Virus record (IMG/VR): IMGVR_UViG_3300023301_000107
Coordinates: 1 to 23,311 of that record
DNA from: a virus
DNA length: 23,311 nt
Reading direction: 5' to 3' (one strand)
Both the position numbers and the translations under genes were made by a program. This document shows positions 3,091 to 22,717 of the stretch, piece after piece. The notes under the pieces are model-generated. The model was not told the DNA's origin. It searched no databases and saw nothing but the letters and a program-made list of their open reading frames with translations. Positions within the stretch are counted from its first letter, which is position 1, and every line of letters begins with the position of its first letter.

Positions 3091-3708
3091 TTATCTTAAA
3101 CAACAAATACCTGATTGGATACATATGATATCAGATACTATTGAATTTAATTTACTGTATTTATTTGGTTGGTATGTGCGATTTTCATTTAGACCTGTTG
3201 GTTTCATAAAGGCACCATGTGTTGAAGGTGTTGATACGAAATCCCAACATAATAATTCAAAATCATCTTCTACTTCTACTCTGCCTTCACCTAATTGTGA
3301 AACAGAACCCATACCTCGAGATGAAATACCTACCGTAATATTATTTTTAAATAATTCTTTAAGTATATTTCCTGATGGGGTAGTTAATATTTCTATTTTA
3401 CCTATCAAATCGTTACCATCCCACCATAATTCTTTAATATTATGTGATGCGTTTTTTAGGTTAATGATTGAGGATTCTGGGTGGTCTAATTCACCTAATG
3501 CTCTGTTTTCAGCAATTGGACCTCCCATGTATTTATCTACTTCTCTCTTTAAAACATCGTAAGGATAGCGTCTTCCATTATGATTGAATTCTTCTGCTCT
3601 TTGAACAACACCTTCAACAATCATATTTTTTAAACCACTAATCCCCTCAGATAATTGAGTAAATTTAGGAGTAAAAACCGAATATTCTAATAGTAGTCTT
3701 TGAGCCAT
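3091..3708 (-). CDS. 21: Prohead core protease, T4 gp21-like
   Basis: Serine protease that matures the prohead by cutting the scaffold and capsid propeptides after [L/I]-x-E. At 205 residues it is close to T4 gp21 (212). Visible family features: NGRRYPYDVLKREVDKY (44-60), GELDHPES with the catalytic His76, NASHNIKELWWDGNDLIG (86-103), and GISSRGMG (127-134) containing the catalytic Ser (129 or 130). The N-terminus MAQRLLLEY contains LLE8, a possible self-cleavage site. The last dozen residues (IICIQSGICCLR) are unusually rich in Cys and may be another removable tail. The start is one base after the upstream stop (TAAAATG), showing tight coupling. A terminator follows. Confidence 0.93.
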   Translation of the reverse strand: MAQRLLLEYSVFTPKFTQLSEGISGLKNMIVEGVVQRAEEFNHNGRRYPYDVLKREVDKYMGGPIAENRALGELDHPESSIINLKNASHNIKELWWDGNDLIGKIEILTTPSGNILKELFKNNITVGISSRGMGSVSQLGEGRVEVEDDFELLCWDFVSTPSTHGAFMKPTGLNENRTYQPNKYSKLNSIVSDIICIQSGICCLR

Positions 3709-4601: not shown

Positions 4602-4737
4602 ATTTACCTTGACCTACATTTAATTTCTTGTAGTTTTTAGAATTCTTCAATTTAGATGTCTTGCTTTTAGCATGAACACCCGGTCTTTTCTTCTTAGTAC
4701 TACCTCTATAATTGAGAGTTTGAATTCCTTTAGCCAT
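4600..4737 (-). CDS. Small very basic protein (45 aa)
   Basis: The ORF reads MAKGIQTLNYRGSTKKKRP followed by a Lys/Ser-rich stretch and ends LNVGQGK. Its ATG shares one base with the stop codon of the gene before it (TAATG), and it fills what would otherwise be a 148-nt hole in a tightly packed cluster. About a third of its residues are Lys or Arg, so it probably binds DNA, RNA or the acidic scaffold. T4 encodes small prohead-core proteins (gp67, gp68) in the same interval between portal and protease, but I cannot show homology. Because it is so short it is easily missed by gene callers. Confidence 0.75.
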   Translation of the reverse strand: MAKGIQTLNYRGSTKKKRPGVHAKSKTSKLKNSKNYKKLNVGQGK

Positions 4738-5504
4738 TATTCTGTTAAACCTTTTATTCTATTATTTAAGTCTTGTAATTTTTCTGAGATTTTATTGATT
4801 GAGTTGCTAGTACGTTTTAGATATGAAATGCCTTCATTATTGGCTTTTAATTCATTTTTTATTCTTTCGGTATGAGTCACTACCTTAACTATATCGTCTA
4901 TTTTACGTCTTATTTCACTTACAGCCCTATGAATTTGTTCAGTGGGTGTACGTAGTTTAGTTTCTGATTTAAATTGTGAATATCTAGCCTCGTTTACTGC
5001 AAATTTCTTATAAGAATCAGGATAATTTTTTCTAATATGTGTACGATATTTATTAAATTGTAACATAATTATAGAAGCTATATCGTCTATAACAGGATCA
5101 TTTGTTTTTTGATCAAGTTGAGAAATAGCTTTACGTAAATCATCAAATTCTTTAAATACAGAATCAAATGCTGGTGTGTATTCTATATCCCATGTTATTT
5201 GCCCTGTTGAAGGATCAACATTAGTTACGGTAGATTGAATACCTCTTGATATTTTAGTATCTCCTACCTCAGATTCAAGCATTTCCCTAAATGTTTTTTC
5301 AAACAACTTCTTATAATCTATAACATCTGATTTTCTATTAGGGATAGATGGGTTTGGTGTTGTAAAAGGTTCACCAATTTCGTTTTTTTGCTTTTTAAAT
5401 GCTTTAGGGGTGGAATATTGAGCCCCATTACCTGGTGTAAATGATGCACCAGTTCCAGTAGTACTCATTTCTTTTTTTAAACCTTTTAAATTTAGTTTTT
5501 TCAT
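4737..5504 (-). CDS. Head-region protein carrying the capsid STTGTGASFT motif
   Basis: A 255-residue protein of unknown function between portal and protease. Residues 1-12 are basic (MKKLNLKGLKKE). Residues 14-30 (STTGTGASFTPGNGAQY) repeat the sequence that follows the presumed propeptide cut of the capsid protein (63-79), ten residues being identical. The remainder is helical, with a coiled-coil C-terminal part (about 190-255). Glu12 just before the motif could be a gp21-type site (KKE|M, a poor match). The start overlaps the preceding stop by 4 nt (ATGA). A role in prohead assembly is inferred from position and the shared motif. Confidence 0.8.
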   Translation of the reverse strand: MKKLNLKGLKKEMSTTGTGASFTPGNGAQYSTPKAFKKQKNEIGEPFTTPNPSIPNRKSDVIDYKKLFEKTFREMLESEVGDTKISRGIQSTVTNVDPSTGQITWDIEYTPAFDSVFKEFDDLRKAISQLDQKTNDPVIDDIASIIMLQFNKYRTHIRKNYPDSYKKFAVNEARYSQFKSETKLRTPTEQIHRAVSEIRRKIDDIVKVVTHTERIKNELKANNEGISYLKRTSNSINKISEKLQDLNNRIKGLTE

Positions 5505-12868: not shown

Positions 12869-12979
12869 ATAACTGTTATTCCTCTTTTGATATTGATTCT
12901 GCTACATAAATACCTTGCGCACCACTAACAGTTATTCCTCTAGCTGAGAGAGCGTCTCCTACGAAGTGAACATTTTCAT
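12833..12979 (-). repeat. Local duplication linking oxidoreductase 3' end and next gene's 5' end
   Basis: The 36-nt segments at 12833-12868 and 12944-12979 match at 31 positions, including 15 identical bases at one end and 8 at the other. A second pair, 12870-12885 and 12926-12941 (taac[a/t]gttattcctct), matches at 15 of 16. The order is A1-B1-B2-A2 along the coding direction, so this is not a simple single tandem copy. Confidence 0.8.
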
Positions 12980-14219
12980 ATTTTGTAAGGCTTAAATTAG
13001 AATAATTAACTAAAGGTTCAGGGGATAAATATTTAACTTCTGGTATGTAAATACCCCAATCGTCTTTTAATGTTGGGAATACTTTCTTCATATCCTCGAT
13101 AAAATCTAATATATAATGGAAATATGGTTGCATAATTTTGGTTACCTCGTGTAGTCTATCTATTTCAATAGATGATACATTTTTACCTTCAGAAGTGGTT
13201 GATGGTTTTCTTGTTGGACTATAGTATAGTCCCGTACCTTCTTTCTGTAATTTTGATACAACCTTTCTTGACCATTCAAATGGGTTTTCTATACCTTGAA
13301 TCTCCATTAAGATACCAAAGTTTGTCATGTTGTTTCTATATTTCTCGTCTTTTCTAGCGTGACCATTGTAACTATGGTTACCATAAGTGTCTTCTACGGC
13401 AACGTATGCAGCATTGTTGTTTGTGCAGAATGAACGTAGAGATACGCCTTTATCCTCGTATTTTCTATATAATTTAAAATCGTAAGATACATCGATTAGT
13501 TTTTGGAAATGTTCTTGTGGTGCCTCGAACCTAACACCAATTTGGACTGATTTGGCTTCCGTTGGTAAATCATATTTTTCTGCTAATTTCTTACCAAAGT
13601 CTATGCCTGATTTACCTACACCAAATATTAATTCATCATATTCTAATGTTTTATTATTAAACCATTTCATACCTCCAGGTAATCCACCACTATCCATTTT
13701 TGCTACTTCAGGATAATATATTTTATTATCTTCAAAATCAATATCCGTTACTTTAGTTTCCCATATAAACTCTACACCTTTAGATTCTAAAAAATCGAAC
13801 CAATTTTTACCTATTTCATGTAGATAATCTGTTCCAACGTGCCATACAGGGAATAAACGTAAACCGAAATAAGGTTTAATGAAATCTGGTTCCTCTATTG
13901 GGTTTGAGCATTGTACTTCTTCTGGTTTAGGGTGAAAACGTTTAAAATTCTCGATTACCTGGTTCATCAACTCCATTGCTTTTTCATCACCACAATATTT
14001 TGATAATTGACCTCCGATTTCTGTGTGGTAAGTTAATTTACCATCAGACCAACCACCAGCTCCTAAAAAACCAGTCATTACATCGTCGTAAGGTCGATTA
14101 TATGGATTGTGTCCCATATCGATAATGGTAATTTTTCCATCAAAGTTATTGTCAACTAATTTTGTGGCAGCGTTTACACCCGCTACTCCAGCACCAATTA
14201 TTACTACGTTTTTTACCAT
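12876..14219 (-). CDS. FAD-dependent oxidoreductase/dehydrogenase (COG2509-like)
   Basis: A 447-residue flavoprotein. Residues 5-14 (VVIIGAGVAG) form the N-terminal Rossmann dinucleotide-binding motif. GAGGWSDGKL is near residues 53-62. QIGVRFEAP (about 242-250), SFCTNNNAAYVAVE, and SYNGHARKDEKYRNNMTNF (about 284-302) are features I link to the uncharacterised COG2509 FAD-dependent dehydrogenases. VGDALSARG at 420-428 is the C-terminal FAD-contacting motif. Length is normal, and all motifs are intact. Substrate and partner are unknown. The gene stands alone behind a near-perfect Bacteroidota-type promoter and is flanked by phage genes, so it looks like an auxiliary metabolic gene taken from a host. 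Its 3' end is the apparent source of a short duplication forming the start of the next gene. Confidence 0.88.
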   Translation of the reverse strand: MVKNVVIIGAGVAGVNAATKLVDNNFDGKITIIDMGHNPYNRPYDDVMTGFLGAGGWSDGKLTYHTEIGGQLSKYCGDEKAMELMNQVIENFKRFHPKPEEVQCSNPIEEPDFIKPYFGLRLFPVWHVGTDYLHEIGKNWFDFLESKGVEFIWETKVTDIDFEDNKIYYPEVAKMDSGGLPGGMKWFNNKTLEYDELIFGVGKSGIDFGKKLAEKYDLPTEAKSVQIGVRFEAPQEHFQKLIDVSYDFKLYRKYEDKGVSLRSFCTNNNAAYVAVEDTYGNHSYNGHARKDEKYRNNMTNFGILMEIQGIENPFEWSRKVVSKLQKEGTGLYYSPTRKPSTTSEGKNVSSIEIDRLHEVTKIMQPYFHYILDFIEDMKKVFPTLKDDWGIYIPEVKYLSPEPLVNYSNLSLTKYENVHFVGDALSARGITVSGAQGIYVAESISKEE

Positions 14220-14498: not shown

Positions 14499-16124
14499 TT
14501 ATTTTACTTTAACAAACTTCCCATTTTGAAGTTCATAAACGTTTGAAGAAGCATTAGATTGGAATTTTGTCATCACTATAGCTTCATTATTTTTTATACC
14601 AAACATCTCTCTGTCTGCCCTATATGCTGATGTTAAGTATGGGTAATATTCTCCTTTAGGAATAGATGGAGGAATTTCATCATGTTGAGATGTTAATTCG
14701 TATGTATTGTTTCCTTTAGGTTTTAAATCGATTTTACCTTGTAAAATAATGTTAACATTATCTTTACTAAAACTTTCACCATACTTTGGACCATATATTA
14801 ATTTTTGAATAAGTTCTTTGTCCTCAATACGAGATATAAAACGGGATTTGTTAGGTAGACCTTCACCTATATTGTTTTCGTTTATCCATTTAGATAATGC
14901 TACATTAAAGGCTTTAACTTCTGGGTGGTCTTTGTACATTGTATATCCACTCCATCTGATGAAATCATTTGCCGAAGCACCTTTACCACCAGCTTTTTTA
15001 TGTGAAATAAAGACAACTGGATTACCTTTAATATCTATTAAGTTAAAATCAGATTTAGGTGATCCTTTTTGGGATTCTGCATCTATGATATTATTATATG
15101 TTTGATTTCCTACAGTAACATTTATAGGCTGTCCATTATTTTCTTCTTTTAATAAAGATATTTGGTCTTTAAGTAATTTTAGGTTATAGTCTTCTACTAT
15201 AGTCCCGGATCCTTGACCTCTACCACCAAAATCTGAGTTCTTTTGTAAGTCTTTAATAGAGTATTCTTTACCGGCATCGTCTTTAAAGAAGTTGAAGGAA
15301 TTGATATTGGTTGTGGATAGTTTTTTTATCTCATTTGAATCTCCATTAGAGAAGATATCAGCATGGTCAGGATTAATAAATTTAAGGGGAGTTGAATTAC
15401 CACCTACAAGTTCGAATGCAGATCCATTTTTTATTTTATCTGCTAATATTTGAAATCTAAAACCCCCACGCTTAGCTAAATCAAAAAAGGATAAAGCATT
15501 AAAATTATTTTCTTTTAATATTCTAAACCTAAGGAGTGGTTTTTTTATTTCTACGCTTTCTTTTAAAATTTTAAATTTAAGAGGTAAAGTACGAATTGGT
15601 TTTTCTACTTTTTTAACTTCAACTTCTTTAGTTTCTGCTAATTCTTCATCATCACCACCTTCATCTTCAGATGATATTCCATCTTCCTCAGTTTCTTTAG
15701 AGGCATCTGTAATATTTTCTTCTTCAACATCTGGGCCCTGTGAACCTGGAGGAGTACCTAAAGTAAGCAATTCAGCTATTGATTTTATAGCATATTCCTC
15801 TTCCCCTATGTTGAGTAAGTAATATTTTTTACCTGAGATTTTAGCTATGTAAGAATCTTTAGCATAAATAAGGTAAAAGTGTTGGCCGTTATGTAATAAT
15901 ATTTTGAATGTTGTTGGTTTAGGTGCCATTACATATATACCTGTAATATAATCTCGATAACTAGGAGTTAATAAGTCATCTAAGGTCCCATCTAGTGAAG
16001 GATATTTATTAAGGATGTATTCCATAGGATCATCCTCAAAAGAAATTACTTTATCTGCTTGAGATTGAATAAAATCTTCTACTTCTTGCTCGAGTAGTTG
16101 AATTAATTGGGTTTTATTTAACAT
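14499..16124 (-). CDS. Large protein with possible PD-(D/E)XK nuclease-like core and N-terminal targeting helix
   Basis: 541 residues. The N-terminal helix [12 protein letters not shown]12|Q fits the [L/I]-x-E pattern shared by neighbours. Residues 40-125 form a small domain. Residues 133-175 are an acidic linker. Three short repeats follow: PLKFKILKE (181-189), LLRFRILKE (197-205) and GFRFQILAD (221-229). The C-terminal half contains [23 protein letters not shown] (355-377), where Asp359 and the S-x-K at 374-376 could be a PD-(D/E)XK-like active site, then [15 protein letters not shown] associate this region with hypothetical proteins of aquatic T4-like phages; no function is proven. It overlaps the 386-aa gene by 11 nt and ends the long upstream operon. 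Confidence 0.8.
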
Positions 16125-17274
16125 GCTTATCTAATAAATGAGATAATGTTATTTTAAATTCGGTTTCATCATCTACTTCTACTTTTTTCTCTTCCATAGA
16201 AGCTTTACCAACTCGACTTGGGTCTATTTTATATCCTCTAATTTCGTCATCTGTAAGTTTTCTACCTAGTGCTTTTTCAAAAGCTCTTATCATATCAACT
16301 TCGGTAGAAGCACCTGTTTTAAGTTGTCTAAGAACTCTAATTAGTTCTTGTTCAGAAAAATCATAATCGGTTTTAGTTTCAGATATTTCATTTACAGTAT
16401 CATATTCATCATCATTTCTTTCATTCCAAATATTTTTTAAACTAGCTACTGTACTTAGTGTAAGTTTACTTGGTAGGTTTAGGGTGCTTTTTGATATACT
16501 GTTTAGGTGAGTTTGTGCTTTTTGTTTAAATTCTTGATAAGAATCGCTAGATTTTGCTAATTTATGCAATGTACTCTGTCCGTGTACTTCTTCGCTTACT
16601 ATATTACCTTTGGTAGTTTCAGATATTGCTTTTTTAATTTCACCATCTTTATTATATATGTTTGTAACTTTTGTATCACCATTACCTTTATCATAAGATA
16701 CACTATATATAGGTCTATCCATTATGTCTGTTCCAGAGGCTGTAATAACAGCTGGGTGTCTTAGGTATGTTACTTTATCTCCTACTTTAAATTCTAATTT
16801 ATCTTCATAAATACTATTTTCAGCATTTAAAGATTTTGTTGGTTTGGGGAAAATAGAAATTGATGCTTCTCCCATAGAATCTATTTGTGCTACTTTTTGT
16901 TTACCATCTAAATAATCGAATGCTGAGCTAAGATATAGGTTGGCTTTAATAATCTTAGCCTGCCACCATTGTGGAAAATCTACTTCCCCAGGCATATTAT
17001 CGTACTTATCTAATTCTTTATATAACATTGAAGCCATCTTAGCGGCTCTATATAACTCAGACTTCAACATTGAGGGTTCATCATCTTGATGTCCCACATC
17101 TAAATCCTCAGTTTGGGTGGATTTTTTAATAGCAGCATCTCTAGCAGCCAGGTAATCATTCGAATCTATATCTCCATCTTTGTCTAGGTCTTTGCCTTTT
17201 TTCTCCATAGAGAGTTTAGAATAAGCACCTAATTGGTTTTCGATAATAAAATCTTTTAAATTGAATGGTTCCAT
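16114..17274 (-). CDS. Accessory/structural-region protein with EF-hand-type calcium loop
   Basis: 386 residues. The N-terminus [12 protein letters not shown]12|N fits the shared targeting-peptide pattern. Residues 29-40 ([12 protein letters not shown]) are a complete EF-hand/dockerin loop with Asp at positions 1, 3, 5 and 12 and Gly at 6. Residues about 70-125 form a helical segment ([19 protein letters not shown], then [19 protein letters not shown]) that I recognise from uncharacterised proteins of marine T4-like phages. [17 protein letters not shown] (from about 162) looks like an SH3-like small barrel. The C-terminal part is helical and charged ([19 protein letters not shown], with [10 protein letters not shown]). 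Function unknown; calcium binding is a fair inference. Leader carries the AATATTTATA motif. Confidence 0.8.
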
Positions 17275-17291
17275 TATTAGTATATTTTAAT

Positions 17292-17300
17292 ATAAATATT
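17292..17300 (-). promoter_or_regulatory. Recurrent AATATTTAT junction motif
   Basis: The minus strand reads AATATTTATATT at the stop of the 242-aa gene and 17 nt before the ATG at 17274. Same motif as at 4592, 6369, 8331, 11268 and 14484. Confidence 0.35.
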
Positions 17301-18027
17301 ATTTTTCTTTATTAATTTTATCTCCTGCGGATTTAGCAATTTTAAATGCTTTGCTACCTTTACGTGCTGGTTTTTCTCCTCTAGCTTGTTTTGCTCTAAT
17401 ATTTGCCCATAAACCTGGACGGTCTGCTTCGCTTATGCTTACTGTATCGTCTCTGTCATCATGATCTATGACATCTACCTTATATTTACCAAAACCTTTT
17501 GGATTATCTTTAACAAAATCTTGTAATTTAGATTTATTACCTTTTACAGAAATTTGATCTTGAAATACCCCTTTGAATTTAAAATCTAAGTCTGGGTATT
17601 TTGTTTGTAGTTGGGTTGTTAGTTTTTGTAAGGGTGATGTATTGTTATCTACTTCCTCATTCACATCTTCGGTATCATCCGCTATGATTTTTAAGATTTG
17701 GTTTAATATATCTGGGGTAAGGCCTGATGTTGTTCCAATTTGGGGTGAATGTCCTTTTTCTTCTTGAATACCTGCAAAACCACCATCAACTAACATAGTG
17801 TATAAATCTAATGCTCCTAAGGTAAACATATCTTCTATATGGTCTTTACCAAAATTATCTACTAGCACCTTATATACATTTTCAACTTGACCCATGTTTA
17901 GTGGAGGGGCTAGGTTTTCATTTAAAGTAGTGGGTGTTTTAGATAATTTATTAACCAATAAATTTTTTAAATTTTTATCTTCTAGCAGAAGTTCATGTAA
18001 AGCTTTTGTGATTTTACTTTTGTTCAT
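17299..18027 (-). CDS. Uncharacterised protein with basic C-terminal module
   Basis: 242 residues. N-terminal helix MNKSKITKALHELLLE16|D fits the shared [L/I]-x-E pattern. Residues 35-90 are a helical domain (MGQVENVYKVLVDNFGKDH, then GALDLYTMLVDGGFAGIQE). The middle (about 130-180) has alternating hydrophobics resembling a small alpha/beta domain (YPDLDFKFKGVFQDQISVKG). The C-terminus is a basic module, RPGLWANIRAKQARGEKPAR and then KGSKAFKIAK, of a type often found at the ends of aquatic phage proteins. No enzyme motif. It overlaps the cupin-like gene by 14 nt, implying translational coupling. Confidence 0.8.
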   Translation of the reverse strand: MNKSKITKALHELLLEDKNLKNLLVNKLSKTPTTLNENLAPPLNMGQVENVYKVLVDNFGKDHIEDMFTLGALDLYTMLVDGGFAGIQEEKGHSPQIGTTSGLTPDILNQILKIIADDTEDVNEEVDNNTSPLQKLTTQLQTKYPDLDFKFKGVFQDQISVKGNKSKLQDFVKDNPKGFGKYKVDVIDHDDRDDTVSISEADRPGLWANIRAKQARGEKPARKGSKAFKIAKSAGDKINKEK

Positions 18028-18274
18028 TTATAAGTATTTTTAAATGTCCTTTACCTTTTATTATTCTATGATATCTCCCTTCTTGTATAAATATACAATC
18101 ATTTATTGGTATAGGCAATTCATTGTCGAATTGTATTTGCCAGTCAGTATTTCCTATAGGAGTTATATATCGGTCACATCTATCTCGATGCCAAACTAAA
18201 TCGGCACTTTCTGTGTCATGTGAAAAATGTCTAACCTGATATCCAAGATATTCGTAATCTATGTATGCCGCCAT
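18014..18274 (-). CDS. Small cupin-like protein
   Basis: With the ATG at 18272-18274 the protein has 86 residues (MAAYIDYEYLGYQVRHF). This start is 1 nt after the stop of the 264-aa gene and is the better choice. A start at 18301 would add nine residues and overlap that gene by 26 nt. The sequence alternates short beta strands and contains WHRDR (H-x-D) and, some 40 residues later, RYHRIIKG. This spacing is reminiscent of cupin or double-stranded beta-helix proteins, where two His and one acidic residue hold a metal. Identity is tentative. Confidence 0.7.
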   Translation of the reverse strand: MAAYIDYEYLGYQVRHFSHDTESADLVWHRDRCDRYITPIGNTDWQIQFDNELPIPINDCIFIQEGRYHRIIKGKGHLKILINEQK

Positions 18275-18275
18275 C

Positions 18276-19070
18276 CTACCAAAACGTATTTTTATTAGCA
18301 CCCAAACCTAAGGCTTTGGCATAACGTGGAAGATTACATGACCAGTAACCTGCTGTAGTTCTATCTTTCTTCTTATCACAATTATGTCTAGCAGCAAAGG
18401 CATTGCGGGCATCTTTATTATTAATTTTTGCTCTTAACCCACCAGAACCGAATGATACTTTCTTAACTTTGTCTCCGTCTTTAACATAAACATAATAAGC
18501 TTTTGAACCTCCACGTTTGGGTTTGTTTAGTGAGACGTCTTTTCCTTTAAATTCTGCTTCTTCAATTTCTCCTCCATTTAACATAGGTATATCTAAAGCG
18601 ACTTCTTTCCCTTCAAATATACCATATTCTCCAATATCTGTATTACGTATTAAATATTTGTCATTTTCATTTAATTGTATAGCACCTTCATTAAACATCT
18701 CACGTACTTCAGCAAAAAATTCAATATATGATTTTGACCCTATACGATATACACATTCTGATATGTTGAGTTTGTTTTTAACATGAAATTCTAAACCAGC
18801 AGAAACTATTACTCCTTCATTAAGAATAATGCCTTCAGATGTTTGGGATATTTCTTTTTCTTTATAGGGAGCTAAATCTTTAAAACTAAATGACTTTGTT
18901 ATGCCCGTAGATTCTAACTTTACAGTATAAAAAGGGTGCTCTGCCATAGTTACTTTAGCCATATCCCCATCAACTGTGGTTACTTTATCTCCTAAAGAAA
19001 ACTTACTTATTGCTTTTGCAACTTTTTCTATAGTTTCTCTAAGAAAATATCGGAGTGTTAGTTGGTTCAT
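18276..19070 (-). CDS. Structural-region protein with SH3-like N-terminus and conserved cationic C-terminal domain
   Basis: 264 residues. The N-terminal helix MNQLTLRYFLRE12|T fits the shared targeting-peptide pattern. FSLGDKVTTVDGDMAKV (24-40) starts an SH3/KOW-like barrel, similar to the one in the 386-aa protein. The C-terminal domain (about 172-258) has GGSKAYYVYVKDGDKVKKV, then RNAFAARHNCDKKK and GYWSCNLPRYAKALGLG, a compact domain I know from several phage and algal-virus proteins (DUF5872-like). It has two Cys that could bind metal or form a disulfide. Function not established. A 76-nt gap separates it from the gene upstream. Confidence 0.8.
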   Translation of the reverse strand: MNQLTLRYFLRETIEKVAKAISKFSLGDKVTTVDGDMAKVTMAEHPFYTVKLESTGITKSFSFKDLAPYKEKEISQTSEGIILNEGVIVSAGLEFHVKNKLNISECVYRIGSKSYIEFFAEVREMFNEGAIQLNENDKYLIRNTDIGEYGIFEGKEVALDIPMLNGGEIEEAEFKGKDVSLNKPKRGGSKAYYVYVKDGDKVKKVSFGSGGLRAKINNKDARNAFAARHNCDKKKDRTTAGYWSCNLPRYAKALGLGANKNTFW

Positions 19071-19146
19071 AAACTATTTTATGTATGTTTATTAAAAAAT
19101 TTTACAATTACTTTATTTAAACTCTTCATTATTTACTTACCTACTT

Positions 19147-19791
19147 TTATTTCTTGTCGTCTTTCTTGTCAGTTTTTTTATCGTCCATTTTAGTATCGTC
19201 CTTAGAAGGCTTTTTCTTTTCTAAACGCAATCCTTCTTTTTCAAGACCACCTTTTAATCTTTCAATCATGGCCTCTACTTGAGTAAGTTTTTCAAGCATG
19301 CTATTGGATTTAGTTTGCATTGTTTCACGCATAGTAGGGTTAGCAGTGGCTTCTGCCATGTTCTTTTCGATAGAAGCTTTGATTTCATCAAGTGAACTTT
19401 CAAGAGTTTTAAGCTTATCTTTCCCCTTTTGATAGGTTTCTTTCATTTGGGTATCTCTAGCTTTTAATGCCTTTTTACCAGCACTTAAGGCTTGAACCCC
19501 TGTAGTAAAGGCTCCAATATATTCACCATCATTAATTAAAGATTGTAAAGATACTTCTTGAACAATACCCCCTTCTGCAGTTTCTTTATTAGGTTTTCTC
19601 ACAAGATAAATATTACCGTCTTTAGTAACTTTATCTTCAAAATCTAATGAGGCTTCCTCTAATTTAACTTTTTCAGTATAAGCCATATCTCCACTTGAAG
19701 CTTCTTCCTGGGACATATCTAATGCCATCCTTTCAGATAACCATTCAGATATATTTTCTTTAATGAGATTTTTTAATTCTTGTTTTTTCAT
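19147..19791 (-). CDS. Coiled-coil protein with charged tail and targeting-type N-terminus
   Basis: 214 residues. The N-terminus MKKQELKNLIKE12|NISEW fits the shared [L/I]-x-E pattern. A small beta-containing domain follows at about 45-85 (KVTKDGNIYLVRKPNKETA). Residues about 100-200 are long amphipathic helices (coiled coil). The last 20 residues are a low-complexity Lys/Asp tail (KKTDKKDDKK). No enzyme motif. A candidate internal head or scaffolding-type protein by composition, but that is inference. Confidence 0.78.
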   Translation of the reverse strand: MKKQELKNLIKENISEWLSERMALDMSQEEASSGDMAYTEKVKLEEASLDFEDKVTKDGNIYLVRKPNKETAEGGIVQEVSLQSLINDGEYIGAFTTGVQALSAGKKALKARDTQMKETYQKGKDKLKTLESSLDEIKASIEKNMAEATANPTMRETMQTKSNSMLEKLTQVEAMIERLKGGLEKEGLRLEKKKPSKDDTKMDDKKTDKKDDKK

Positions 19792-19811
19792 GGTATAAAA
19801 ATTATTCTATT

Positions 19812-19820
19812 ATAAATATG
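19812..19820 (-). promoter_or_regulatory. Junction motif variant CATATTTAT
   Basis: The minus strand reads CATATTTATAAT in the 37-nt gap before the ATG at 19791. It differs from the recurrent AATATTTAT motif by one base. Confidence 0.25.
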
Positions 19821-19828
19821 TATAGGTA

Positions 19829-20404
19829 TTATAATTCAATTTCCTTTAATTTTTTAATATTGTCTTTTAACATTTTAAGTACTTCAGGTGATACCTTACT
19901 TTTACTCCAATTTTCAATATCACCAGCTTCAGACATAAAAGTATCGTCATTGGCTGTAGCATATTCTTCTACAGCTTGTTCGTAATCTGTTAAAAAAGCA
20001 TTTTTATTCTGATTCATTATGTTTTTAGCATATGTTTCGTATTTACCTTCTATTCTTAATTTAGTTTCCATATCTATAACACAATCCGAACAAATTTTAT
20101 GGTATGACCACATTTTTTTATTTAGGGGTGTTGGTTTAAATGAACTATTACATGAAGGGCAAACAAGGGGTAGTTGAGTAAGTTCTCTTATTTTATCGTG
20201 TTTGGTGATGGTTTGTTTTAAGTTGTTTATTATAGTCCAACTTTTACCATTTTCTTCCCAAATATCACCTTCTTTATATGTTTCCTTTTTTTTCTCATAA
20301 CCTGTTTGGATGCGAGTAGTATTTGAGGTGTTACCTGAAATTATGTTTCGTGCTCTTTGTAGGTCTCTTTCAGTAAATTGTTTATTTAATTGAGTTTCTT
20401 TCAT
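19829..20404 (-). CDS. Zinc-ribbon protein of unknown function
   Basis: 191 residues. CPSC at 82-85 and CSDC at 105-108 form a four-cysteine zinc ribbon flanked by short strands. Before it, GDIWEENGKSWTIINNLKQ (46-64) looks like a small beta sheet. The C-terminal half is helical. Unlike most genes in this block, its N-terminus (MKETQLNKQFTERDLQRAR) does not fit the [L/I]-x-E pattern. The start overlaps the stop of the HAD gene by 4 nt (ATGA). I recall similar zinc-ribbon proteins in other T4-like phages, with no known role. Confidence 0.8.
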   Translation of the reverse strand: MKETQLNKQFTERDLQRARNIISGNTSNTTRIQTGYEKKKETYKEGDIWEENGKSWTIINNLKQTITKHDKIRELTQLPLVCPSCNSSFKPTPLNKKMWSYHKICSDCVIDMETKLRIEGKYETYAKNIMNQNKNAFLTDYEQAVEEYATANDDTFMSEAGDIENWSKSKVSPEVLKMLKDNIKKLKEIEL

Positions 20405-20952
20405 AAGCCTATTTTTGATAATTCGTGTATAACTTGATCTGTTGATTTAAATATTATACCAATACCTCCTGCCTGTTTCCAAGATTGTATATTATCTTCT
20501 CGATCATCAATTAAAATGGAGGTAGGAGTTGCAAATTTTTCTTTACCACTTGCTCCAAATCCAAATTTATATGGGGTATTAGGTGTATTTCTTTTAATCC
20601 AAACACCTTTCCCAATACGAGATGATTCATCTCTGGAGGGTGATGTTAAGATTGTGGGTTTGTGTTTTTTAATATAATTATATAGTTTTTCTCCTTCGGG
20701 CATCCAAGTCATTCCAGCCCAATATCTAACACCAATTTGGTTGTCTATTAAACTCCAAAATTGTTCAGTGGCTTTAGATTTTCCAAATTCTATTGTTTTT
20801 TGAGCTATAAATTCTTCAGGGGTAACACCCGCAAATTGTTCAAAACGTCTTTCAAAATCAGTTAAAACCCCATCCATATCAACATAAATCGTATAAGATT
20901 TTGATATATCTTCTTTAAGTAAATCCATTAAACTACCCTTTATTGTATTCAT
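20401..20952 (-). CDS. HAD-superfamily 5'-nucleotidase-like phosphatase with N-terminal targeting helix
   Basis: 183 residues from the ATG at 20950-20952. Motif I YVDMDGVLTDF (23-33, Asp25 and Asp27), motif II LTSPS (102-106), a Lys/Arg-rich motif III region around 120, and motif IV ILIDDREDN (146-154) define a soluble HAD phosphatase of the 5'(3')-deoxyribonucleotidase type. The likely role is dephosphorylating nucleotides. The first 14 residues (MNTIKGSLMDLLKE|D) are an extension before the enzyme fold and match the [L/I]-x-E pattern of neighbours. Keeping this helix argues for the 20952 start. A TTG at 20976 and an ATG at 20928 are alternatives. The start overlaps the upstream gene by 20 nt. 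Confidence 0.85.
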   Translation of the reverse strand: MNTIKGSLMDLLKEDISKSYTIYVDMDGVLTDFERRFEQFAGVTPEEFIAQKTIEFGKSKATEQFWSLIDNQIGVRYWAGMTWMPEGEKLYNYIKKHKPTILTSPSRDESSRIGKGVWIKRNTPNTPYKFGFGASGKEKFATPTSILIDDREDNIQSWKQAGGIGIIFKSTDQVIHELSKIGL

Positions 20953-22717
20953 ATATTTGTGGGTTGTTTCTCCCAAATTGTCTCATTATAACACCGGCTA
21001 AGGAATGTGCTTCATTTTCTTCTGGTGAGCCGTCTTCTCCAGATGTAGGTTCTAATCTACCATCCTGATTTTGCATGTGGTGAACCATTTCATGTGCTAT
21101 GGTTCTTAAAATATCAGCCATATTTCGGTTATGAACTACAACCATTAATTTATTATTTGAAGGAACATAACCTCCAAAACTATGATATTGTTGCGTATAT
21201 TCAGGTGAATTAATTAATTTAATGCTAGGTCTATCGATAGACAGATAATCCGTACAATAATCTAGGAACGCGTTTATAATGCGTGCTTTATTTGTATCCC
21301 AGCTTTCGTTTAAGAATTTTTTATATCTCGCCTCTTGAAGATATTTATCTTCCTGTGTTTTAAATTTTTTAGGAACAACTGGTTCCTCTCCAGAAAGTAG
21401 TATATTAATGCTTTCATCACTATATTCCCCAGTTTCAACTAATTTATAAATTTCTTTTAAAGTTTTTCTTTCTATTAACTTTTTAACAGAGTTCCATTGT
21501 TCAATTCTACTTTTAGAATTTAAATCCCCATTTTGATAGTAGTTTAAAGATTGTTTATATGATTCATTTAATGAATCCATACGTTTGTTAATTGAAGATT
21601 TATATGATTCCTCAATAGAACGTATTGTTACTCCTTCTTCTTGACTATTGTCTATTACATATCTATTATTAAGTAAAGTTTGAAGCTTTAATATATAATT
21701 CTTATATATAAGGGTTTTAGAACTGGTATTGCCAGATATAAATATAGATTTAGGGGAGTTAGTTTGTAACCAATCTTCTAAAACTTTAAAAACTGTAGTT
21801 GTTACTTGTTTCCAAGCTTCGGGAGATTTATTATTATTATTATCTGTAAATTTCCAATTTAGTGAATAATCATCATCCCAATCTTCAAATTTAAAATAAT
21901 ATTTTGCTTCTATATCTTCCCCATCTCCTACAATATATTCTAAGGGTGATGTTTTTTTAATAATGGGTAAATCTTTTTCAAATAATTCATTTAAGACATA
22001 ATGTTTGTATTCTTTAATATGATTTTGAATTTTATGTTTAAATTTTTCACTTAATTTAGGTGTATTATCGTGTCCACATTTATGACACATATATAAATCA
22101 TCACCACCGTCAGCTATTTTCCAATGCCATTCACAACCATCACAGTGTATTTCATCACCAACTATAGCTTCGTTTAATTGAAATATAGATAAAAAATCAT
22201 CTACGTTTACCTCATCAGGTATGAATGAGGATATTACTTCTATATCTTTATTACGAATTGCCTGACGTAGATTTGTTGATGAAAAATTACCAACAGTTCC
22301 AGCATTGAATATTTCAACATTGAAGTATTTTTCTTTATTGGATAGAGATTTAAAACGATCTCCTTCACCTTTACCAAATACAGCTTTAATATCGTGGGTA
22401 GGGTTGTCTTTAGCGTAATTATATACTGCTAAAACTGGGGAAGGTGTTGTAATTATTTCTAAATTTTTTAAACCTGGGATGTTTTGTTTGTATAGTTCCC
22501 ATACTTTTAGTGATTTTTCTACTTCAATATCTTCTCTTGCTTTTGAAGAAATAAATAATATTAGTTTAGATGTATCATAATCAAAGGAATCTAATGCTAT
22601 TTGAACGTGTCCTTTATGTGGGGGTTTAAAAGCACCAGGGTATAGAGATACTTTCTCCGTAAAGTCCTCCATGAGCAGTTGCTCAATTATATTTTTACCT
22701 AATTTTTCGTAATTCAT
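20933..22717 (-). CDS. Nucleotidyltransferase-zinc finger-zincin fusion protein
   Basis: 594 residues in at least four parts. An N-terminal helix ends LLME17|D. Residues 22-180 are a cytidylyltransferase-like nucleotidyltransferase with HKGH at 34-37 (H-x-G-H), PGAFKPP before it, and SSTNLRQAI at 146-154 as the second signature. A four-Cys zinc finger lies at 192/195/211/214 (CDGC and CHKC). Residues about 260-365 form an alpha/beta domain of unknown role. A C-terminal zincin-type domain has HEMVHHMQNQ (542-551), where His542, Glu543 and His546 make the H-E-x-x-H site, and an ENEAHSL segment further on as possible third ligand. Nucleotidyltransferases of this kind make or break adenylylated or cytidylylated cofactors or sugars. 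It could modify and then cut a host target, but no substrate is visible. It overlaps the kinase gene by 4 nt. Confidence 0.85.
   Translation of the reverse strand: MNYEKLGKNIIEQLLMEDFTEKVSLYPGAFKPPHKGHVQIALDSFDYDTSKLILFISSKAREDIEVEKSLKVWELYKQNIPGLKNLEIITTPSPVLAVYNYAKDNPTHDIKAVFGKGEGDRFKSLSNKEKYFNVEIFNAGTVGNFSSTNLRQAIRNKDIEVISSFIPDEVNVDDFLSIFQLNEAIVGDEIHCDGCEWHWKIADGGDDLYMCHKCGHDNTPKLSEKFKHKIQNHIKEYKHYVLNELFEKDLPIIKKTSPLEYIVGDGEDIEAKYYFKFEDWDDDYSLNWKFTDNNNNKSPEAWKQVTTTVFKVLEDWLQTNSPKSIFISGNTSSKTLIYKNYILKLQTLLNNRYVIDNSQEEGVTIRSIEESYKSSINKRMDSLNESYKQSLNYYQNGDLNSKSRIEQWNSVKKLIERKTLKEIYKLVETGEYSDESINILLSGEEPVVPKKFKTQEDKYLQEARYKKFLNESWDTNKARIINAFLDYCTDYLSIDRPSIKLINSPEYTQQYHSFGGYVPSNNKLMVVVHNRNMADILRTIAHEMVHHMQNQDGRLEPTSGEDGSPEENEAHSLAGVIMRQFGRNNPQIYEYNKG

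Follow-up and report, generated by a model that had tools for sequence, protein, structure and literature searches.

Leaders ending in [L/I]-x-E on unrelated proteins of a T4-type phage cassette are probable capsid-targeting sequences

The window analyzed here is an entire 23,311-base IMG/VR virus record (IMGVR_UViG_3300023301_000107). Its T4-type head module, in which gp23, a gp22-type scaffold, gp21, gp20 and gp17 were identified, lies on the − strand and is followed by a cassette of nine genes (14499-22717). An initial annotation had proposed that seven of the cassette proteins start with a capsid-targeting peptide like that of the T4 internal proteins; the ORFs of all seven were found at the places named, on the − strand. 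Genes are named below by their first position, and all window features described are on this strand. Of the nine cassette proteins, six have an [L/I]-x-E motif with its Glu exactly at residue 12 (14499, LLE; 16114, IIE; 17299, LHE; 18276, LRE; 19147, IKE; 20933, IIE), two more than the four proteins for which this spacing had been noticed. With a background of 1.8% per position, the probability of this arrangement is 2.6e-9, or 4.7e-8 after correction for 18 possible positions, and the motif was absent from residue 12 in all 16 other window proteins tested. Further [L/I]-x-E sites occur at residue 16 in 17299, at residues 16 and 20 in 19147 and at residue 17 in 20933. The leaders had also been described as a shared amphipathic helix. 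While they are indeed short and follow the common rule of ending in [L/I]xE, strong amphipathicity is not general, the hydrophobic moment of residues 2-13 lying between the 29th and 96th percentiles of 12-mers from the same protein, and several tag classes are present rather than a single common peptide.

The proteins behind these leaders differ. The 14499 protein (14499-16124, 541 amino acids) has a 12-residue leader ending at LLE12 (16089-16124) and a two-part body, with an N-terminal module (residues 1-205) and a C-terminal domain matching phrog_13937. A relative on contig L330 retains the leader (MLNKKEFLQLLE), to which the tag-like helix of the L360 and L349 proteins is homologous. The 16114 protein (16114-17274, 386 amino acids) has an EF-hand-like stretch and no Pfam family; its 24-residue leader (17203-17274) belongs to the tag-2 class described below and carries IIE12 and SME24, the second Glu (SKLSME) being the end point of that class. 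The leader of the 17299 protein, MNKSKITKALHELLLE (17980-18027), holds LHE12 and LLE16 and precedes a protein of 242 amino acids (17299-18027; phrog_22379, phrog_28131), the C-terminus of which is common to tagged proteins in other phages (MKKSVLTELIREIIKEESKGLWANI in contig G075). The 18276 protein (18276-19070, 264 amino acids, phrog_7595) starts with MNQLTLRYFLRE (19035-19070), ending at LRE12, where a relative has MDQLKLRYLIRE; its AlphaFold model was too poor for use (mean predicted local distance difference test score, pLDDT, 54). The coiled-coil-like 19147 protein (19147-19791, 214 amino acids) has the tag-1-class leader MKKQELKNLIKENISEWLSE (19732-19791) with IKE12, ISE16 and LSE20. 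The 20401 protein (20401-20952), an HAD-fold enzyme, starts with MNTIKGSLMDLLKE (20911-20952), ending at LKE14. Finally, the multidomain 20933 protein (20933-22717) starts with MNYEKLGKNIIEQLLME (22667-22717; IIE12 and LME17), with MNYEKLGKNIVEQLLME in a relative, and combines a nucleotidyltransferase (NMNAT/cytidylyltransferase-like), a zinc-ribbon-like stretch, DUF6934 and a zincin-like domain (HEMVHH); DUF6934 scores over the Pfam cut-off, and the nucleotidyltransferase and zincin score under it.

Tags are missing from the remaining two genes of the cassette, 18014 and 19829. The former (18014-18301) encodes 95 amino acids from a GTG start, and the latter (19829-20404) serves as an internal negative, as none of its listed homologues has a leader. 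A dehydrogenase-like enzyme (12876-14219, phrog_12409), located between the cassette and small genes, is also leaderless. A PADLOC scan gave a single match, to Cas12a (E 3e-4), and single window proteins had no sequence matches among solved structures.

The tags recur in other phages, as the initial annotation had suggested looking for in homologues and other genes. Among isolates, Flavobacterium phage immuto is closest; its terminase is 60% identical, and its late genes upstream of gp17 include a cassette syntenic with that of the window, with protein starts MKKSELVKLIKE, MKKSQLREIIRKE, MKKSQLRQIIKE, MENTFDLKKFLVENKLTNNSRLLE, MADNFNLRSFLTENKLTKNAQLLKE and MENFDLKKFLVENKLTTNSKILKE. In IMG/VR, three large tag classes were found, each on many unrelated proteins: MKKSEL..IIKEEI..LNE, MENFDLKKFLVENKLTTNSRMLNE and ..RMQKLAG[IL][IL]xE (the RMQ tag). 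The 19147 and 16114 leaders fall into the tag-1 and tag-2 classes, respectively, both of which are also seen in immuto. With profiles from whose training this phage and immuto were excluded, the 19147 leader reached 26.0 for tag 1 and the 16114 leader 29.3 for tag 2, and none of the permuted profiles reached the threshold for the latter.

We scanned IMG/VR at the DNA level with the patterns MKK[ST][EQ]L..[IL]I[KR]E for tag 1 and MENF[DN]L..F..EN for tag 2, which demand nothing beyond residue 13. The tag-1 pattern occurred in at least 120 stretches, with far below one expected by chance according to our estimate, and on at least 123 dissimilar proteins; the matches listed for tag 2 comprised 77 ORFs, 49 of them dissimilar. 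A further [LIVM]xE ending at residues 14-26 was present in 105/123 tag-1 and 46/49 tag-2 proteins among the matches listed, compared with 19/102 and 2/46, respectively, in an equal stretch downstream. Column information fell to background directly after E20 in tag 1 and at about E24 in tag 2. Conservation that ends at [L/I]xE is what would be expected of a propeptide terminating at a protease site. Alternatively, the peptides might dock the proteins to the prohead and stay uncut, with the Glu as part of the docking helix and the proteins as permanent inner-head components. E12 and L6, both included in the search patterns, are the most conserved residues across both tags, as for a binding face, and T4 has its docking determinants inside the same ten residues (PMC9026906). 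However, conservation stops directly after [L/I]xE in both tags, leaders of differing length all end in this motif, and T4 gp21 substrates are cut after L/I-x-E (PMC9026906). We therefore regard uncut docking as improbable.

The bodies of the tagged proteins are diverse. Matches to 15 Pfam families, nearly all found once, were obtained for 63 longer tagged proteins, including alpha/beta hydrolase, ADP-ribosyltransferase and DUF6934, the last also present in window protein 20933. Codon use in tag 1 differs little from that in the gene bodies, indicating that the constraint acts mainly on the protein; on this ground, a signal at the DNA level (for instance, a translation leader) was ruled out for tag 1. 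Further related starts, MDKKxWxKLL.K, some adjoining tag-1 genes, were seen in a jumbo-sized contig (G010 28847-265300; 293 kb) and are possibly an additional tag class.

A given cargo family can follow different leaders, and leader and cargo meet at [L/I]xE. A KQVGxLYHFT (ADP-ribosyltransferase-like) family is preceded by ..ALNE (tag 1), MIKLRDILNE (tag 3), MIKLLDILKEITE or MFISE, a second family by ..IIGE or MIKLKDILKE, and three more families behave alike. Shared starts were also sought de novo, genome by genome, as similar starts on unrelated proteins compared with shuffled starts. This search returned exactly IPII, IPIII and gp61.1 in T4 and many more proteins than shuffled starts in the tagged phages, and in two large contigs negative for S77 (the gp21-type protease family) it returned nothing beyond the shuffled level. 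It also recovers secretion signals. The start of T4 gp61.1 (NC_000866 18966-19130; L386), MKTFKEFIKED, nearly copies the leader of IPII and IPIII, and on this basis gp61.1 may be an overlooked internal protein. An origin of the leaders by chance, as short charged starts containing L-x-E, or by simple paralogy, as descendants of one gene, could appeal to the commonness of a single [L/I]xE and to some tag-2 copies being recent DNA copies. It is contradicted by the motif, profile and de novo search counts, which rule out chance, as well as by the unrelated bodies and the exchange of leaders at the site, and we consider this explanation extremely improbable.

The statement that this phage has a gp21 was borne out. 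The gene at 3091-3708 encodes a gp21-type prohead protease, the putative trimming enzyme, matching PF03420 (Peptidase_S77, E 2e-33) and phrog_207 (E 4e-53). The major capsid protein gp23 (276-1904; phrog_138, E 4e-69) has a putative maturation site at LVVE61/A (the slash marks the putative cut here and below), and the propeptides of aligned relatives end in LVVE, IVSE, LVSE, LVTE and VLHE, so that the local cleavage specificity looks like hydrophobic-x-E. Peptidase_S77 was present in 25/39 tag-1, 11/14 tag-2 and 11/23 RMQ-tag contigs of ~30 kb or more, and in 5/34 random viral contigs (Fisher P 8e-7 for tags 1 and 2 together, an optimistic value, as are the other P values, since contigs share kinship). 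It was found in all 14 tagged contigs >150 kb. The 14 S77-negative tag-1 contigs also miss gp23 and thus resemble fragments that lack the head module. A head-module protein (4737-5504) combines a tag-1-like leader, MKKLNLKGLKKEM, with STTGTGASFTPG, a copy of the putative mature start of gp23. The sequence STTGTGASFTxGxGxQY occurs after the putative gp23 cut site (276-1904) and also after the tag-like start of this small head-module protein (4737-5504; G082 137121-137363), which would give two mature head proteins a common N-terminal sequence.

The RMQ tag resembles the scaffold. The gp22-type scaffold (1925-2905) was assigned by its position between gp21 and gp23 and by its conserved ends, and its C-terminal peptide FVARMQKIAGII contains RMQKIAGII (1928-1954), with the variants ..RMQKLAGII, ..RWQKLAGIIK and ..RFKKLAGLK in relatives. 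The RMQ tag is this peptide, followed directly by [L/I]xE, at the starts of many small unrelated proteins. When IMG/VR was scanned with a DNA pattern that named no start codon, 121/125 matches lay ≤20 residues from an ATG, and 98 of the matches listed differ in their bodies. Since this tag copies the tail of the scaffold, the probable docking place is the prohead core or the inner shell.

The HAD enzyme encoded at 20401 allowed leaders to be compared among homologues. It is a 5'(3')-deoxyribonucleotidase (NT5C-like), matching phrog_2643 (E 9e-26) and, just below the cut-off, NT5C (3.7e-5). A profile search of solved structures matched mitochondrial and cytosolic deoxyribonucleotidases, and Foldseek with the structure model returned general HAD-family matches only. 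The conserved ATG at 20952 is taken as its start, as the listed TTG at 20976 would add 8 residues that are missing in relatives. In the model, the leader has a pLDDT of about 49-57, and the core, confident from about residue 20, exceeds 90. Across 11 diverged phage leaders, the final Glu (E14) is invariant, ten ending in [L/I]xE and one in FKE. Most cellular homologues start 5-13 residues ahead of the catalytic Asp and so have no leader, which agrees with the expectation of the initial annotation for bacterial homologues. The copies outside late regions in phiM12 (beside gp32), pf16, phiCbK and Atu_ph07 are leaderless as well, and the copy in the late region of Melnitz has a leader (..SINE). 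HAD copies on contigs of metagenome-assembled genomes (MAGs) have the leaders MKTFKDYIVE and MKKFRDYLVE. Several MAG contigs labelled bacterial (L409-L448, notably L423, L425 and L442) encode the HAD enzyme with a phage-type leader, which suggests that they are unrecognised phage sequence in the assemblies.

Published virion data bear on related leaders. In purified S-SM1 virions, Sullivan and co-workers found a putative cytidylyltransferase (T4-GC190; PMC3037559), and NMNAT has been reported in virions of S-SCSM1 and S-CBWM1, where its frequent occurrence was remarked upon and carry-over allowed for (PMC9602691). The S-SM1 protein starts with MKKFSAFLNE/AERS and its relatives with MKKFSTFISE/A, MKKFSDFLTE/A and MKSFLQFLKE/A, all near copies of the T4 leader; the two starts examined among the virion-detected cyanophage NMNAT-like proteins are MKKFSAFLNE/A and MKSFLQFLKE/A. 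The nucleotidyltransferase homologues P-HM2_163 and 121Q, for which packaging is not expected, have no leader. We found no literature linking the cyanophage virion NMNAT with a capsid-targeting sequence. If the leaders are trimmed, AAESGASVQAK would be the semi-tryptic peptide of the S-SCSM1 NMNAT in place of EAAESGASVQAK, and the S-SM1 protein would lack FSAFLNEAER.

Nearly every test that could be run supported the capsid-targeting reading: the position of the motif, its recurrence in relatives, the conservation ending at the putative cut site, the swapping of tags, the linkage to a gp21-type protease, the mostly leaderless cellular homologues, the scaffold-tail tag and the detection of leader-bearing cyanophage proteins in virions. 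We thus consider it highly probable that the leaders are capsid-targeting sequences of a greatly expanded T4-style targeting and gp21-trimming system, in which packaging, cleavage and injection are inferred from T4 (PMC9026906, PMC5694885, PMC3012670). In such a system, tagged proteins would be made late in infection with a short N-terminal peptide that docks them to the prohead core, through the gp22 scaffold and/or the inner face of the shell. Activated gp21 would cut after the [L/I]xE that ends the peptide, and often also at a second site within it, releasing the mature enzyme inside the head. DNA would then be packaged around the cargo, which would be ejected with it into the next host. 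The predicted cargo of this phage comprises the deoxyribonucleotidase, the nucleotidyltransferase-zincin multidomain protein and several unknowns.

Several observations weigh against this interpretation. The logos are biased at positions that the search patterns prescribed, where conservation is built in. Part of the tag-2 similarity, judging by the skewed codons (TTA, TTC), is recent DNA copying rather than independent constraint. The S77 linkage is partly common ancestry of T4-type phages, and S77 was seen in only about half of the RMQ-tag fragments. The window leaders are only loosely similar to the T4 sequence, close copies being found instead in the cyanophage NMNAT (MKKFSAFLNE) and the MAG HAD enzyme (MKTFKDYIVE), and the 20933 protein shares a Pfam family with the cyanophage NMNATs (below the cut-off) with no significant pairwise similarity. 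Virion proteomics for the phage of the window or immuto was not found in the literature examined, and a paper on other phages of the immuto host contains no mass spectrometry. Moreover, the tag-2 protein immuto_3 (L003 1803-2318) is encoded in the replication module, between the polymerase gene and the ssDNA-binding protein, off the late cassette. That gene, a tag-1-like gene adjoining baseplate genes, and the secretion signals that likewise produce shared N-termini in the de novo search would suit peptides that target a place other than the head, such as the replication compartment, a membrane or the baseplate. The leaders are not hydrophobic signal peptides, however, and the linkage to S77, the copying of the gp22 C-terminus by the RMQ class and the presence of leader-bearing NMNATs among cyanophage virion proteins also argue against such a target, which we consider very unlikely.

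Sites of the same kind occur inside multidomain cargo. The 14499 protein and its L330 relative are 68% identical through residue 205 (RILKE) and show no significant similarity beyond it, and the linker at 15510-15569 contains ILKE189 and ILKE205 as putative internal gp21 sites. In the 18276 protein, the MI[RK]LQE with which shorter homologues begin aligns to an internal IILNE85. The 20933 protein has LNE at residues 183, 244, 385 and 471, of which 183, 244 and 471 flank its domains, and these domains occur separately in relatives. An 863-amino-acid multidomain protein (L330 7417-10008) contains the linker YLQEARYNKFLKE twice, each time ahead of a different domain. For domains also found as tagged stand-alone cargo, 13/29 internal junctions carry [L/I]xE, compared with 3-5/29 at shifted places. 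A general test of all domain boundaries in these phages, many of which derive from truncated ORFs and tail proteins, showed no [L/I]xE enrichment, a further point against. On these two results, cutting of internal sites by gp21 is kept as a possibility. We only tentatively propose, with somewhat more doubt than belief, that T4-type phages of aquatic bacteria use a modular cargo-loading code in which interchangeable N-terminal tags, one copying the scaffold C-terminus, direct dozens of unrelated effectors to the prohead and interdomain [L/I]xE sites let gp21 split cargo polyproteins into separate injected enzymes.

The phage proteins that enter the cell with the DNA are mostly unknown beyond a few models. 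A rule combining a start peptide that ends in [L/I]xE with an S77 protease would allow injected proteins to be predicted in uncultured phages, and it offers a possible reason for the recurrent NMN adenylyltransferases in cyanophage virions. Candidate loading tags for phages of Flavobacterium and of cyanobacteria follow from it as well, together with numerous candidates for effectors that act early.

The closest known system is the T4 capsid-targeting sequence of IPI-IPIII and Alt, which is processed by gp21; an Asp in place of the Glu at the T4 site prevents this processing (PMC9026906). As in T4, short N-terminal propeptides ending in [L/I]xE are found on diverse proteins of phages with gp21, gp22 and gp23, and an ADP-ribosyltransferase-like cargo has a very short leader, MFISE here and ITE-6 in Alt (PMC5694885). 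Different from T4, there are several tag classes of 10-24 residues, often with two or three sites, and the tagged genes of one genome number as many as about 15-20, compared with a handful in T4; the C-terminus of the scaffold reappears in one class, multidomain cargo may contain internal sites, and the hosts include Bacteroidetes. In the giant phages phiKZ and SPN3US, propeptides of head or ejected proteins are also cut by a gp21-like protease after a short Glu-ending motif, and leaders are sometimes identical on diverged paralogues (PMC5694885). Most of those propeptides, however, exceed 100 residues, and leaders are shared there between paralogues, whereas the leaders described here are short and are on unrelated proteins. 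With its nucleotidyltransferase, other domains and zincin in a late gene cluster, the 20933 protein also resembles the polyvalent proteins of phages and plasmids (PMC5512222), but the defining feature of these is their domain composition rather than a targeting peptide that can be removed or interdomain gp21-type sites.

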